Source: Proteinivorax tanatarense (GTDB lineage: Bacteria > Bacillota > Proteinivoracia > Proteinivoracales > Proteinivoracaceae). Taken from it: a DNA stretch of 64,000 nt. A model generated the notes under the pieces. That model made no database searches and had not been told where the DNA came from. It was given only the letters and a program-made list of their open reading frames with translations. The stretch lies in the NCBI RefSeq assembly GCF_040267685.1, contig NZ_CP158367.1, positions 1,984,001-2,048,000 of the forward strand, given 5' to 3'. Numbering within the stretch: position 1 is the first letter of the stretch; each line of letters starts with the position of its first letter. Both the position numbers and the translations under genes were made by a program. Positions 5,873-63,617 of this stretch are shown here, in pieces.

Positions 5873-7225
5873 TTAAACATTTTCTTCATCTTCATTCTCT
5901 TCACTATCTTTATCGCCATCATCTTTGCCGTCATCTTTATCTTTTTCGTCGTCCTCACTTTTATCATCGTCTGTGTCCTTATCTTTGTCTTGATCTTCAT
6001 TTTTGTCTTTACCATCGTCTTTATCTTTATCATCATCTTTACCTGTTTCATCATTTTCTCTATTTTTGTCGCCATCTTTATCTTCTTCTAAATCCTGGTC
6101 TTTTACATCTTCATTATGTTCGTCATTTTCCTCAGTTGGATCATCTTTTTCCTCTGTTCTATGGTCTTCTTCTACCCAAGGATTTTGCATTACTATAGTT
6201 CTCCATGAGGATTCTATGCCAAATACTTCTTTGATAACAGACACTCTCTGATGCTCATCTAACATTACATAACTAATTCCATTATTGTCTCTCGCTGTGC
6301 TTCCGCGTAATGTGTGGAAGTTGATATCATTATTTAAGTCAATTTGATTTGCTACAAGAGTTAAAGCTGTTATTTGGGCAACTGTCAAGTCTGTGTCAAC
6401 CATATGATTGACTTGCCTATATAGTTGAGGAATTTTGGGAATCATGTTAGCTTGCATCATTTGCTCAAAAGCAGCTTTCATCAGCTGGTTTTGCATTTCA
6501 ATTCTTTCAAAATCGTTTGAATTTAAAGATGTTCTATCCCTTGCTAAGTACATAAATTTTTCACCATCTAAAACTTGTTTCCCCTGCTGAAGCCTTTTTC
6601 TGGTCCCTCTATAATTGTAGACATCTCCGGGTACATAAAACTCCACACCACCTATTAAATCAATTATTTCTTCAGCACCGTCCATATCTACCGTTACATA
6701 GTTATGGATAGGAATGTCACTTAACACCCAACTCATGGTTTCCATAGTATACCGTAAGCCTTCTTCTTTTCTAGACTCTATATCTACTCCATCACCAAAT
6801 CTCTGCCCATAATAAAATGCATGGTTTATTTTATCTTTATGCCCGCCTCTATTTGCTATTTGTACGTAAGAATCCCTTGGAATATTTATAACATCCACTG
6901 TGTTCTTTTCAATATCAATTGACGCTACAAAAAGAGTATCAGGTCTATAAAAAGTATCTTCTCTACTATCTGACTCATCAAATCCCAAAAATGCAATATT
7001 TACAAAAGAGCCTAAAACTTCTTCTGGATCTAATTCCTCTCCCTCTATCTCACCAACCCCAGCAGGTGAATATACTTCAAATGCAGACCCTATATTATGG
7101 GCTTGATTTGCAAATTGGGCACCATAAGCTACCGATGATAAGATAATTATGGACATTATAAAAATTGCTATTCTCTGAATGTTGGAAGAAATAAACTCCC
7201 CAAGTTTTTTTAAATTCTTTTTCAA
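5873..7225 (-). CDS. LytR-CpsA-Psr (LCP) family protein with a long acidic C-terminal tail
   Basis: The 450-residue protein has a cytoplasmic basic start, one membrane anchor (about residues 17-36) and an extracellular LCP domain (about 70-340). LCP hallmarks are AFLGFDESD, the RPDTL segment, VINIPRDSYV and DKINHAFYYG, including the acidic and arginine residues that bind pyrophosphate and metal. LCP enzymes transfer glycopolymers from lipid carriers to peptidoglycan. Residues 350-450 are almost entirely Asp, Glu and Lys in DKDKD/DDGKD-like runs, which is unusual for the family. The start is TTG behind GGAGGGG. An ECF-type promoter lies upstream at 7418-7443. Confidence 0.88.
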   Translation of the reverse strand: MKKNLKKLGEFISSNIQRIAIFIMSIIILSSVAYGAQFANQAHNIGSAFEVYSPAGVGEIEGEELDPEEVLGSFVNIAFLGFDESDSREDTFYRPDTLFVASIDIEKNTVDVINIPRDSYVQIANRGGHKDKINHAFYYGQRFGDGVDIESRKEEGLRYTMETMSWVLSDIPIHNYVTVDMDGAEEIIDLIGGVEFYVPGDVYNYRGTRKRLQQGKQVLDGEKFMYLARDRTSLNSNDFERIEMQNQLMKAAFEQMMQANMIPKIPQLYRQVNHMVDTDLTVAQITALTLVANQIDLNNDINFHTLRGSTARDNNGISYVMLDEHQRVSVIKEVFGIESSWRTIVMQNPWVEEDHRTEEKDDPTEENDEHNEDVKDQDLEEDKDGDKNRENDETGKDDDKDKDDGKDKNEDQDKDKDTDDDKSEDDEKDKDDGKDDGDKDSEENEDEENV

Positions 7226-7300: not shown

Positions 7301-7378
7301 GACTTTAATTAATGAAAAAACCAGCCACTAAAATATAGTAGCTGGTTTAAAGTCGAAAAATAAAATTAGCTCGACTTT
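7301..7378 (-). promoter_or_regulatory. Pair of hairpins in the LCP leader, possible attenuator
   Basis: On the minus strand, AAAGTCGA/TCGACTTT (7371-7378 with 7349-7356) is followed by an AACCAGC..GCTGGTT stem (7318-7348) with a T run, a plausible terminator. A third segment, TTAAAGTC (7301-7308), can pair with GACTTTAA (7347-7354) and would disrupt the first hairpin. These sequences lie downstream of the ECF promoter and upstream of the LCP start, and may also terminate transcripts from the upstream activase gene. Confidence 0.5.
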
Positions 7379-7417
7379 TTCCGAATCTATTTTTCCCTTT
7401 ACCCTTTCATATATATA

Positions 7418-7443
7418 GACGAATAAAAAGAGAAAAAGTTTCA
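7418..7443 (-). promoter_or_regulatory. ECF-sigma-type promoter upstream of the LCP gene
   Basis: Read on the minus strand: TGAAAC (7443-7438), 16 bases, CGTC (7421-7418), then TATATATATGAA. This matches the GAAAC/CGTC pattern of extracytoplasmic-function sigma promoters and has the same spacing and downstream sequence as the promoter of the ECF sigma gene at 63592-63617. The TGA of the -35 box is also the stop codon of the upstream activase gene. Confidence 0.75.
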
Positions 7444-58671: not shown

Positions 58672-59529
58672 ATGTTAAAGACTAATCAAGATAAGCTAGT
58701 TATGCAATCTGTTTGTGGTGAAATTAGCCATCCAAGAGCCCGTACATATCGTTTTGATACTGAAGGGCAAGCCCACATGGTTCCTGGTACAGGAGGAATT
58801 ACCTATAATGTTAAAGTTGGAGACTATGCCAGTGGCTGGAAAGGTGATCATGTAGAGCCGGGAGTAAGCATCCAACTTTCTGATGCTCTTAAAAATAGCG
58901 GACTTAACTGTATGGCTTGCGTAGGTAATGAAGCTAAAGTAATAAGTGGCGAAGCTAAGGGTGAAAAAGGAGTAGTGACAGGCTTCCACGGTGGTATAGA
59001 ACATACTCTTATTCATTTCGAGGATGAAATAATGGAAAAACTATCAATAGGAGATAAAATACAAATAAAGGCTTTTGGTAATGGTTTAGAAATTGAAAGT
59101 TACGAAGATATTAAAATCTATAATCTTGACCCAAAATTGTTTGAACAATTAGGCATTAGAAAGCAAGACAACGGGAATTTAGAGGTGGATGTAGTTACAG
59201 AAGTGCCAGCTAGATTAATGGGTTCTGGCATCGGCTCACCTGCATACAGAGGTGATTATGACATTCAAACTGCTGACCCACAGGATTATAAAGATTTTGG
59301 GTTAGATAAATTAAAGCTGGGTGATATTGTGCTTTTAAGAGACTGTGATACCACCTACAGCAGAGGATACTTAAAAGGAGCTGTAACTATAGGAATAGTA
59401 ATACACAGCGACTGTATAATTGGAGGTCATGGGCCGGGAGTTACTACTCTTTTAACTTGTAAAGAGAGCAAAATCAAAGGAAAGAAAAATTCAGAGGCGA
59501 ATATAGTTAATTACTTAAATCTTAAATAA
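58672..59529 (+). CDS. DUF4438-family protein of unknown function
   Basis: The 285-residue protein is rich in glycine-containing turns and beta structure: HMVPGTGGITYNVKVGDYASGWKGDHVEPGVS, CMACVGNEAKVISGEAKGEKGVVTGFHGG, GSGIGSPAYRGDYDIQT and SDCIIGGHGPGVTTLL. I assign it to DUF4438, without a known activity. The conserved histidine and glycine segments suggest a binding pocket. The ATG follows AAGGAGG. It lies downstream of the LtaS-like gene and has a very strong terminator. Confidence 0.8.
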   Translation: MLKTNQDKLVMQSVCGEISHPRARTYRFDTEGQAHMVPGTGGITYNVKVGDYASGWKGDHVEPGVSIQLSDALKNSGLNCMACVGNEAKVISGEAKGEKGVVTGFHGGIEHTLIHFEDEIMEKLSIGDKIQIKAFGNGLEIESYEDIKIYNLDPKLFEQLGIRKQDNGNLEVDVVTEVPARLMGSGIGSPAYRGDYDIQTADPQDYKDFGLDKLKLGDIVLLRDCDTTYSRGYLKGAVTIGIVIHSDCIIGGHGPGVTTLLTCKESKIKGKKNSEANIVNYLNLK

Positions 59530-61530: not shown

Positions 61531-63012
61531 TTAGTAAATTTTTTTGTATTCTCCACTATTTAAATTATATTGCCAAATGTTGAGATAATTTTCCTTAACA
61601 AATATTAGCATATGTTCTCCTTTTTCATCTAAGATGAAATATTCCATGTTATTAAACCCTTCTGGATTTTTAAATGAACCGTCTTCTTTGAAATATATCT
61701 CATCATCTATTAATAATATTAACTGATTGTGATATTTTTTTACCTTTTTTATTTCTTCAATTTCCTTTGGAAATCTTCCTAGAGAAAAAACTTCAGACTC
61801 TTCCTCTACAAGACAATATCTAAGTATTATATTTTCCTGCTCTGACCAAAGGTATATAGCGTTTGTGGATGAGTTTAAAACTTTATGCTCACCTTTAATA
61901 TCAGCATAAACGGTGCCCGTTAGCAAATCTTCTATAAGAATTTCTGGACCTTCTTTTACACCAAAAAGACTGTTATTAGATATGTTTGCTTTTTTTCTTA
62001 TAATGTCTGAAATGTTAAGAGTTTTAATTTGTGGCTCTTCAAATTGCAAACTATCTCCATATATTTCATCATAGTTCTCTATAGTTAAAAACTCTTTTAA
62101 TACCTCATCTAAAGATGATTCTCTTATTTCTTTTCTTTCTAAATTGATAACTTGTGTTTTAAGTTCTCCATCTCTTTGCAAAAATTTTGCTACATTATTA
62201 TCATTTAGCCAGATAGAATGTTTAGGTATCCAAATATCCTCAAGGGTGACATGTATAGCATAGCCATGCTCTGAGTATTTTAACTGAGCATTTTCAGATT
62301 CCCCTAATTTCAGTTTATCTCCTGTGCTTAAAGATAATGTTACCTTATCCTTATCAGGGGCTATTAGTTTTAAATGATTATTGTAATTCTTTTCTAATTC
62401 TAAGGTGATAGGAGTTTCCCCCACCCATCTTCCATTTAACATCACTGATGTATTTTCAGCATTAGAGTCTAACTTAACCATATTTGGATTTGCCGGCATT
62501 AACTTCCCCTCTATGTTAACTTGATTGTTGCTAAAGAATATTGAGTACTCATCTGATGATTCAAAACTTTGTATTAGTTCTTCAGGCCCTCCGCATTGAA
62601 AATCTCCTTGCCATATTAAATATCCTGGTTTTCTTATAGACATTGAGTTAATGTCTCCTTCATCTTTTTCCATGGTATATGTCATTGGTGTATTGCCAAT
62701 TTTTTGGCCATCTAAAAATACCTCTGCACCTTCAATGTTGGAGATTACCTTTAAATCAAATTCATCAACCCCTGTTTGTGGTATTATTCCCACTTTTAAG
62801 TTAGCAAAGAAAAACAATAATACCATTGAGGCAACAAACGCTAATGGTTTTATATGGGGCAATAGTCTATGTAGTAAACTGTAATTATTATTTTCTTCCT
62901 CTAGTATATTACTTAACATCTTTTCTTTTGTACCTAAAGGGGCTTTTACATCAGGAAGTTCATTTATTTTGTTTATGTGTTTACTGTGAGAGTTTTGCTC
63001 TTTATTACTCAT
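61531..63012 (-). CDS. Membrane protein with PEGA domains, candidate anti-sigma factor
   Basis: The 493-residue protein has a cytoplasmic N terminus (1-54), one membrane helix (about 55-75) and a large extracellular part. Two PEGA repeats are visible, with DGQKIGNTP (101-109) and NGRWVGETP (about 192-200); the remainder (to 493) contains beta-rich repeats such as IWQYNLNSGEY. It overlaps the ECF sigma gene by 8 bases. The order sigma then single-pass membrane protein is the classic anti-sigma arrangement. The cytoplasmic domain lacks an obvious ZAS zinc motif, so the inhibitor type is not certain. Confidence 0.75.
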   Translation of the reverse strand: MSNKEQNSHSKHINKINELPDVKAPLGTKEKMLSNILEEENNNYSLLHRLLPHIKPLAFVASMVLLFFFANLKVGIIPQTGVDEFDLKVISNIEGAEVFLDGQKIGNTPMTYTMEKDEGDINSMSIRKPGYLIWQGDFQCGGPEELIQSFESSDEYSIFFSNNQVNIEGKLMPANPNMVKLDSNAENTSVMLNGRWVGETPITLELEKNYNNHLKLIAPDKDKVTLSLSTGDKLKLGESENAQLKYSEHGYAIHVTLEDIWIPKHSIWLNDNNVAKFLQRDGELKTQVINLERKEIRESSLDEVLKEFLTIENYDEIYGDSLQFEEPQIKTLNISDIIRKKANISNNSLFGVKEGPEILIEDLLTGTVYADIKGEHKVLNSSTNAIYLWSEQENIILRYCLVEEESEVFSLGRFPKEIEEIKKVKKYHNQLILLIDDEIYFKEDGSFKNPEGFNNMEYFILDEKGEHMLIFVKENYLNIWQYNLNSGEYKKIY

Positions 63013-63562
63013 AATTTATCACTCCCTTATTTGTACAAAAATCTGCAGAGCTTTTATTCTCTAGATTCTTCATACCCCTGTGCAATAGCGTCTTTACAGC
63101 ACTTTCCTTTACGCCCATAATTTTAGAGGTTTCTTTTATACTAAAACCATGTAATCTTCTTAAAAGAATAACAGTTCTTTGTTCACACTTTAAGGTGCCC
63201 AAAATTTTTAAGGTGCTTTCCAACTCACTTTTATGTTCTAGAATATCTTCTGGAGTTATATTAGTCATTAATTTACCACTATAATCATCTAAGTTTAAAT
63301 GTTTTTTATTTTTTCTATAATGGTCATAAACAGACCTTCTAGCTATGTTAAAGACCCAGCTTTTAATACTACTTTTCCCTTTAAATGATTTCATTTTGCG
63401 ATATACTTTTACAAAAATTTCTTGAGTTACATCTTCACAACATGTTATTCCTACTGAATAAGCAACAAAATTATAAACATCTTGAAAATACATATTATAA
63501 ACCTCAATGAAGGCAGATTGCTCACCATCTATAAATCTTTTAACTAAAACTTGCTCCTCCAA
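63005..63562 (-). CDS. ECF-family RNA polymerase sigma factor
   Basis: The 185-residue sigma factor has region 2 (about 15-85; DVYNFVAYSVGITCCEDVTQEIFVKVYRKMKSFKGKSSIKSWVFNIARRSVYDHYRK) and region 4 (about 125-178; LKCEQRTVILLRRLHGFSIKETSKIMGVKESAVKTLLHRG). It starts at TTG, with GGGAGGG 7 bases upstream. A TGAAAC-N16-CGTC promoter lies upstream at 63592-63617, consistent with self-activation. The partner membrane protein gene overlaps its end. The signal is unknown. Confidence 0.92.
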   Translation of the reverse strand: MEEQVLVKRFIDGEQSAFIEVYNMYFQDVYNFVAYSVGITCCEDVTQEIFVKVYRKMKSFKGKSSIKSWVFNIARRSVYDHYRKNKKHLNLDDYSGKLMTNITPEDILEHKSELESTLKILGTLKCEQRTVILLRRLHGFSIKETSKIMGVKESAVKTLLHRGMKNLENKSSADFCTNKGVINYE

Positions 63563-63591
63563 ATAACTTCCCTCCCGCCTTCATATATATA

Positions 63592-63617
63592 GACGTAAAT
63601 AAAACAAAAAAGTTTCA
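63592..63617 (-). promoter_or_regulatory. Auto-regulatory ECF-sigma promoter
   Basis: Minus strand: TGAAAC (63617-63612), 16 bases, CGTC (63595-63592), then TATATATATGAA. The architecture is identical to 7418-7443. It lies about 30 bases upstream of the ECF sigma start codon. Confidence 0.8.

Follow-up and report, generated by a model that had tools for sequence, protein, structure and literature searches.

A gene for an ECF sigma factor overlaps a gene for a membrane protein with two PEGA repeats in the stretch of Proteinivorax tanatarense DNA analysed here (64,000 nt, hereafter the window). This arrangement raises the question whether the membrane protein is the anti-sigma factor of its neighbour, and which genes such a pair would control. 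To our knowledge, PEGA domains occur widely, and for most of them no function has been established. Our reading, which we hold to be very probable, is that 63005-63562 is the gene of an ECF sigma factor and 61531-63012 that of its membrane-bound anti-sigma factor, and that an envelope signal would free the sigma factor to activate its own operon and an envelope regulon. Gene layout, domains, promoter, regulon sites and conservation were analysed at the sequence level; sigma binding, inhibition, the signal and the release step are what we infer.

A PEGA domain on a presumed receptor with a readable output promoter would make PEGA sensing testable by reporter assay. The exchangeable-looking sensor and the constant short segment of the protein would also provide a clean case of a minimal anti-sigma segment and of modular sensor exchange. 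The predicted regulon, possible small RNA included, is small and directly checkable.

The sigma factor and its promoter

The sigma gene and the elements upstream of it are as follows.

63005..63562 (-): ECF sigma factor, 185 aa, with regions sigma2 and sigma4 (Pfam, NCBIfam, PDB relatives)
63314..63325 (-): region 2.4 DXXR motif (D80-H-Y-R83), with no change of D or R in the alignment of five orthologues
63586..63617 (-): predicted autoregulatory ECF-type promoter TGAAACTTTT-N12-CGTCTATATA, exact sequence match
63612-63617 (-): -35 element of this promoter
63592-63595 (-): CGTC of this promoter

The initial annotation had called an ECF sigma gene at 63005-63562, and domain searches bear this out. 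The open reading frame scores above the cut-offs for Sigma70_r2 (PF04542) and Sigma70_r4_2 (PF08281) in Pfam and for the superfamily model TIGR02937 in NCBIfam, where the top subfamilies are BldN/SigM-like and below cut-off. Only sigma2 and sigma4 regions are present, as in ECF (group IV) sigma-70 factors, and the PDB relatives are sigma-E and SigW. The gene starts with TTG, preceded by GGGAGG, and an ECF-type promoter sequence lies directly upstream of it in all five genomes of the order.

The minus strand at 63592-63617 reads exactly TGAAAC TTTTTTGTTTTATTTA CGTC, so that the promoter had been placed correctly upstream of the sigma gene; 29 nt separate the end of CGTC from the TTG start at 63562. 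The G at 63582 is the predicted +1, because it agrees with the start site mapped for Tt-RpoE1 of Thermoanaerobacter tengcongensis and because a purine occupies the equivalent position in 36 of 39 sites. These 39 are distinct sites, one of them from a more distant genome, and they share further geometry: an A-tract precedes the -35 element, T is found at -1 in 28, and the purine at +1 stands at a fixed distance. T at -1 and purine at +1 are also the geometry mapped for Tt-RpoE1 (PMC3397946).

A genome search with TGAAAC-N15-17-CGTC had been proposed in the initial annotation as a check. This short form is not significant genome-wide, as the genome of 3.09 Mb contains it 14 times, versus 21 times for the reversed control, which is chance level. 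It was dropped as regulon evidence, and the extended form alone is informative. Within the window, TGAAACTTTT-N12-CGTCTATATA has two exact matches, versus 0.02 expected even with three mismatches permitted. The genome holds 14 matches at up to three mismatches, ten of them at no more than one, versus one in the control. A strict form, TGNAACNTTT-N11-13-CGTCTA, was counted in the five order genomes and gave 38 sites versus 2 in the reversed control. Six orthologous promoters were compared in the window's genome and that of its sister species. Each of the six pairs has an unchanged -35 hexamer and an unchanged CGTCTA, and in four pairs the spacer has diverged to 62-67% identity. The promoter sites inspected are intergenic and lie mostly ahead of envelope genes.

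Related sites occur at other ECF loci. A distant ECF locus in another genome of the phylum (L103, genome G361) also has a site of the form TGAAACATTTT-N11-CGTCTA, which suggests that the promoter type may predate the order. At a pair of loci (L044 and L072; G000:C1:1082449 and G004:C1:1845180), a variant promoter, TGTAACCTTTTTGAC...CGTTTATATA, stands before a frame-split ECF gene in the sister genome, and the window's genome retains a similar promoter-like site, with no ECF gene after it.

Predicted regulon

The regulon of the pair's sigma factor seems to comprise about a dozen cell-envelope genes and possibly a small RNA. The sigma operon itself is a predicted target in 5/5 genomes, and a MoxR-type AAA operon and a Big_14-domain protein are predicted targets in 4/5 each. 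An LCP ligase and a small PEGA protein are predicted in the two sister genomes, and large single-pass proteins in the three others. ABC exporter genes account for five sites in the window's genome and for two in its sister, and a family-4 glycosyltransferase is a predicted target in the sister genome G004. As judged from the genes behind the sites, this predicted set is a cell-envelope programme.

At one exporter locus (L015; G000:C1:2800193-2800224, minus strand), the sigma promoter is kept before a permease gene and the ATPase gene has shrunk to a few codons. L015 is one of several similar ABC exporter loci with a reduced ATPase gene.

A second promoter and a candidate small RNA

The other exact match in the window is followed by a short predicted transcript.

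7412..7443 (-): second promoter copy, exact match; shares bases with the stop codon of the radical-SAM (pflA-like) gene ahead of it
7315..7408 (-): small RNA candidate, about 94 nt, presumably sigma-dependent; 5' end predicted as GAAAGGGUAAAGGG, strong intrinsic terminator at 7348-7318
5873..7225 (-): protein of the LytR-CpsA-Psr (LCP) family, behind the second promoter (PF03816; same order in G004)

This promoter is conserved in G004, and each of the five genomes has, behind the same promoter, a predicted transcript that lacks an open reading frame and ends in a terminator (the window and loci L061, L055, L068 and L062). The predicted 5' end is G-rich; four genomes read GGTAAAGGG there and the fifth reads GCAAAGGG. 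A pflA-like gene closely precedes the candidate in 4/5 genomes. In two genomes, an open reading frame of 191 residues, presumably xpt-like, is located between the pflA-like gene and the candidate RNA, and the genome without a pflA-like gene just upstream has part of a similar reading frame nearby. The candidate was also considered as a small coding gene, which was rejected on inspection, with no suitably placed ATG, GTG or TTG frame after the G-rich segment. Rfam assigned no family to it and returned one sub-threshold, chance-like match.

The LCP gene is a probable member of the regulon, if transcription reads through the terminator. There is a considerable chance, if short of an even one, that the candidate is a mere leader with an attenuator for this gene and no separate regulatory RNA, as the terminator lies between the promoter and a same-strand LCP gene in both the window and G004. 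Against this, the three other genomes have no same-strand gene after the terminated transcript, and the G-rich 5' segment is kept there.

The PEGA membrane protein

The presumed partner of the sigma factor is divided as follows.

61531..63012 (-): probable anti-sigma factor, 493 aa, single-pass membrane protein with a PEGA ectodomain
62851..63012 (-): residues 1-54, presumed cytoplasmic sigma-binding segment (alignment)
62902-62958 (-): residues 19-37, conserved motif LP-x7-T[KR]-x-[KR]-[IM]-L-x-N-[IV]-L (orthologue alignment)
62782..62850 (-): transmembrane segment, about residues 55-77 (hydropathy maximum; model helix 47-71)
62503..62766 (-): PEGA domain 1 with a C-terminal helix-strand extension, residues 83-170 (PF08308 at 86-131; pLDDT about 80)
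62362..62481 (-): PEGA domain 2, residues 178-217 (second PF08308 stretch)
61534..62361 (-): C-terminal beta-rich region, residues 218-493 (alignment; low-confidence model)

The description of an overlapping, single-pass protein with two PEGA repeats was accurate. The two genes overlap by 8 nt, and hydropathy indicates one hydrophobic segment and no second. PF08308 matches with 48.6 bits versus a cut-off of 20.8 and in two stretches; the three orthologues scanned for this family are also above the cut-off. PEGA 2 is related to PEGA 1 (hhalign E 3.9e-7). The C-terminal region, which is shorter in two orthologues, is possibly propeller-like: Foldseek with the low-confidence model returned mostly beta-propellers at a TM score of about 0.14, which is too weak to classify it. 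Pfam gave no TolB profile match in the protein, and sequence searches found no convincing PDB relative. The structure model places a helix at residues 28-39, with pLDDT below 50. Residues 1-54 contain no known anti-sigma domain by Pfam or NCBIfam, and they contain no Cys and hence no zinc-finger anti-sigma motif.

In all five order genomes, the PEGA gene directly follows the sigma gene and overlaps it. These genomes also share the surroundings, which consist of a divergent deacetylase-like gene, the sigma gene, the PEGA gene, a cation-efflux transporter and endonuclease III. A DUF4438 protein with a weak KOW-like segment (58672-59529 of the window, plus strand) lies near the pair, also in at least three of the four other genomes. 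Among 398 genomes of the phylum, the PEGA anti-sigma protein was found in five, and in none outside the order. The nearest sigma factor outside the order (L090) is of the same class, and its partner protein has the same N-terminal motif and spacing, then a hydrophobic segment. Its ectodomain differs and contains no PEGA domain. Because the N-terminal motif is shared without PEGA, it seems that the sigma-binding part stays constant and that the sensor can be exchanged among related sigma partners.

These observations bear on whether the PEGA protein inhibits its neighbour at all. It could be an envelope protein transcribed along with the sigma gene, or a co-factor that assists the sigma factor, with the real anti-sigma factor elsewhere or absent, and both the undetected anti-sigma domain and the phylum at large would fit this: PEGA proteins there mostly lack sigma partners, with no ECF gene within 1.5 kb of any of the 30 best PEGA loci. 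We nevertheless consider it highly unlikely, given the conserved overlap and gene order, the experimentally tested precedent of Tt-TolB, and the recurrence of the N-terminal motif in a partner with a different ectodomain, as expected if the shared part binds sigma. The pair and its autoregulation, as first proposed, are well supported at the level of sequence by the conserved operon, overlap, promoter, N-terminal motif and neighbourhood.

A small PEGA protein

One predicted target resembles the sensor part of the presumed anti-sigma factor.

G000:C1:2066882-2067223 (-): small single-pass PEGA protein, 116 residues (L175; also L161 and L117)

Pfam alone does not place this protein above the PEGA cut-off. 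An alignment of its domain with PEGA 1 of the presumed anti-sigma factor covers 69 columns and takes in the helix that lies outside the Pfam model (hhalign E 8.5e-5), and the predicted order of strands and helix is that of the PEGA 1 module. A structure search with the protein returned nothing at E below 0.001. The N-terminal sigma-binding segment is absent. In both sister genomes the spacer of its promoter is 17 bases long, and the homologue in another genome (G001) has no recognised promoter site. A feedback or decoy role for this protein is a guess.

Proposed mechanism

We propose that at rest the sigma factor is held at the membrane by residues 1-54 of the PEGA protein, mainly by the helix after the LP motif. 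The PEGA and beta-rich ectodomain would sense an envelope signal, and a conformational change or regulated proteolysis would then release the sigma factor. The free sigma factor would read TGAAACTTTT-N12-CGTCTATATA, recognising the CGTC element through its DXXR motif. It would activate its own operon, creating positive feedback in which the inhibitor is co-produced, and also cell-envelope genes, the small PEGA protein and the candidate small RNA.

We give almost no weight to the reading in which another ECF sigma factor mainly serves the 63592 promoter and the other sites, the pair being a downstream target that is not autoregulated: the genome has several further ECF-like genes and the ECF sigma factors of Bacillus subtilis are known to overlap in specificity, but in every order genome the motif stands ahead of this sigma gene, no such site was seen by eye upstream of the other ECF-like genes inspected, and DXXR is invariant in this sigma factor. 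Some of these promoters could also be shared with other ECF sigma factors of the genome.

An extension of the proposed mechanism, rather unlikely in our judgement, would give the sigma factor two inducible feedback arms, in which the small PEGA protein would serve the sensor as decoy or partner and the small RNA would act through a G-rich 5' seed. We know of neither arm in any Gram-positive ECF system; for seed-type small RNAs, the comparison is with the sigma-E-dependent RNAs of enteric bacteria.

Comparison with known systems

SigM, SigW and SigX of B. subtilis use promoters of the TGAAAC-N16-CGT type, and their targets include LCP ligases and a MoxR-type operon. The promoter class and predicted targets of the present sigma factor are similar, and the models of the SigM and SigX families are among its best-scoring ones, below cut-off. 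The anti-sigma factors of B. subtilis, for example RsiW, differ in having other ectodomains, whereas the protein described here has a PEGA sensor and no zinc-finger anti-sigma motif.

In class I anti-sigma domains (ASDIs), helix 4 binds sigma2 (PMC7406223). The PEGA protein resembles ASDI proteins in being membrane-bound, and a helix predicted with low confidence between the LP motif and the transmembrane segment may be the counterpart of helix 4. Unlike ASDIs, it has no Hx3Cx2C zinc motif, no profile match in Pfam or NCBIfam, and no confident four-helix domain within its 54 residues. The missing zinc motif alone does not exclude it from the class, because about 44% of ASDIs lack this motif (PMC7406223). 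Even without a match to an ASDI profile, an anti-sigma-like working is the best-supported reading of the protein's sequence.

By analogy of design, the closest tested relative is Tt-RpoE1/Tt-TolB of T. tengcongensis. In this autoregulated pair, the anti-sigma factor has an N-terminal sigma-binding segment (residues 1-39), one transmembrane segment and a large ectodomain; the promoter is tGTTAC-N16-CGTC with TATA after CGTC, and the D of the DXXR motif has been shown experimentally to read the -12 G of CGTC (PMC3397946). Both systems have a sigma gene followed by a single-pass partner with a short N-terminal segment, presumed to bind sigma here. As in the description of the Tt pair, a CGTC -10 element followed by TATA here goes with DXXR in region 2.4 (PMC3397946). 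Compared with that published description, the -35 element differs, being TGAAACTTTT here and tGTTAC for Tt-RpoE1. The ectodomain of Tt-TolB is annotated as TolB with no mention of PEGA, whereas the present protein has two PEGA domains and a C-terminus that may be propeller-like.

The initial annotation saw no precedent for the signal and binding mode. This holds only in part, because Tt-RpoE1/Tt-TolB has the same gene order, CGTC, DXXR and short N-terminal segment (PMC3397946). The claim stands for the PEGA sensor, since the literature searched yielded nothing relevant on PEGA combined with sigma factors. The new element is the PEGA ectodomain on a presumed anti-sigma factor, in a kind of system that is already known.
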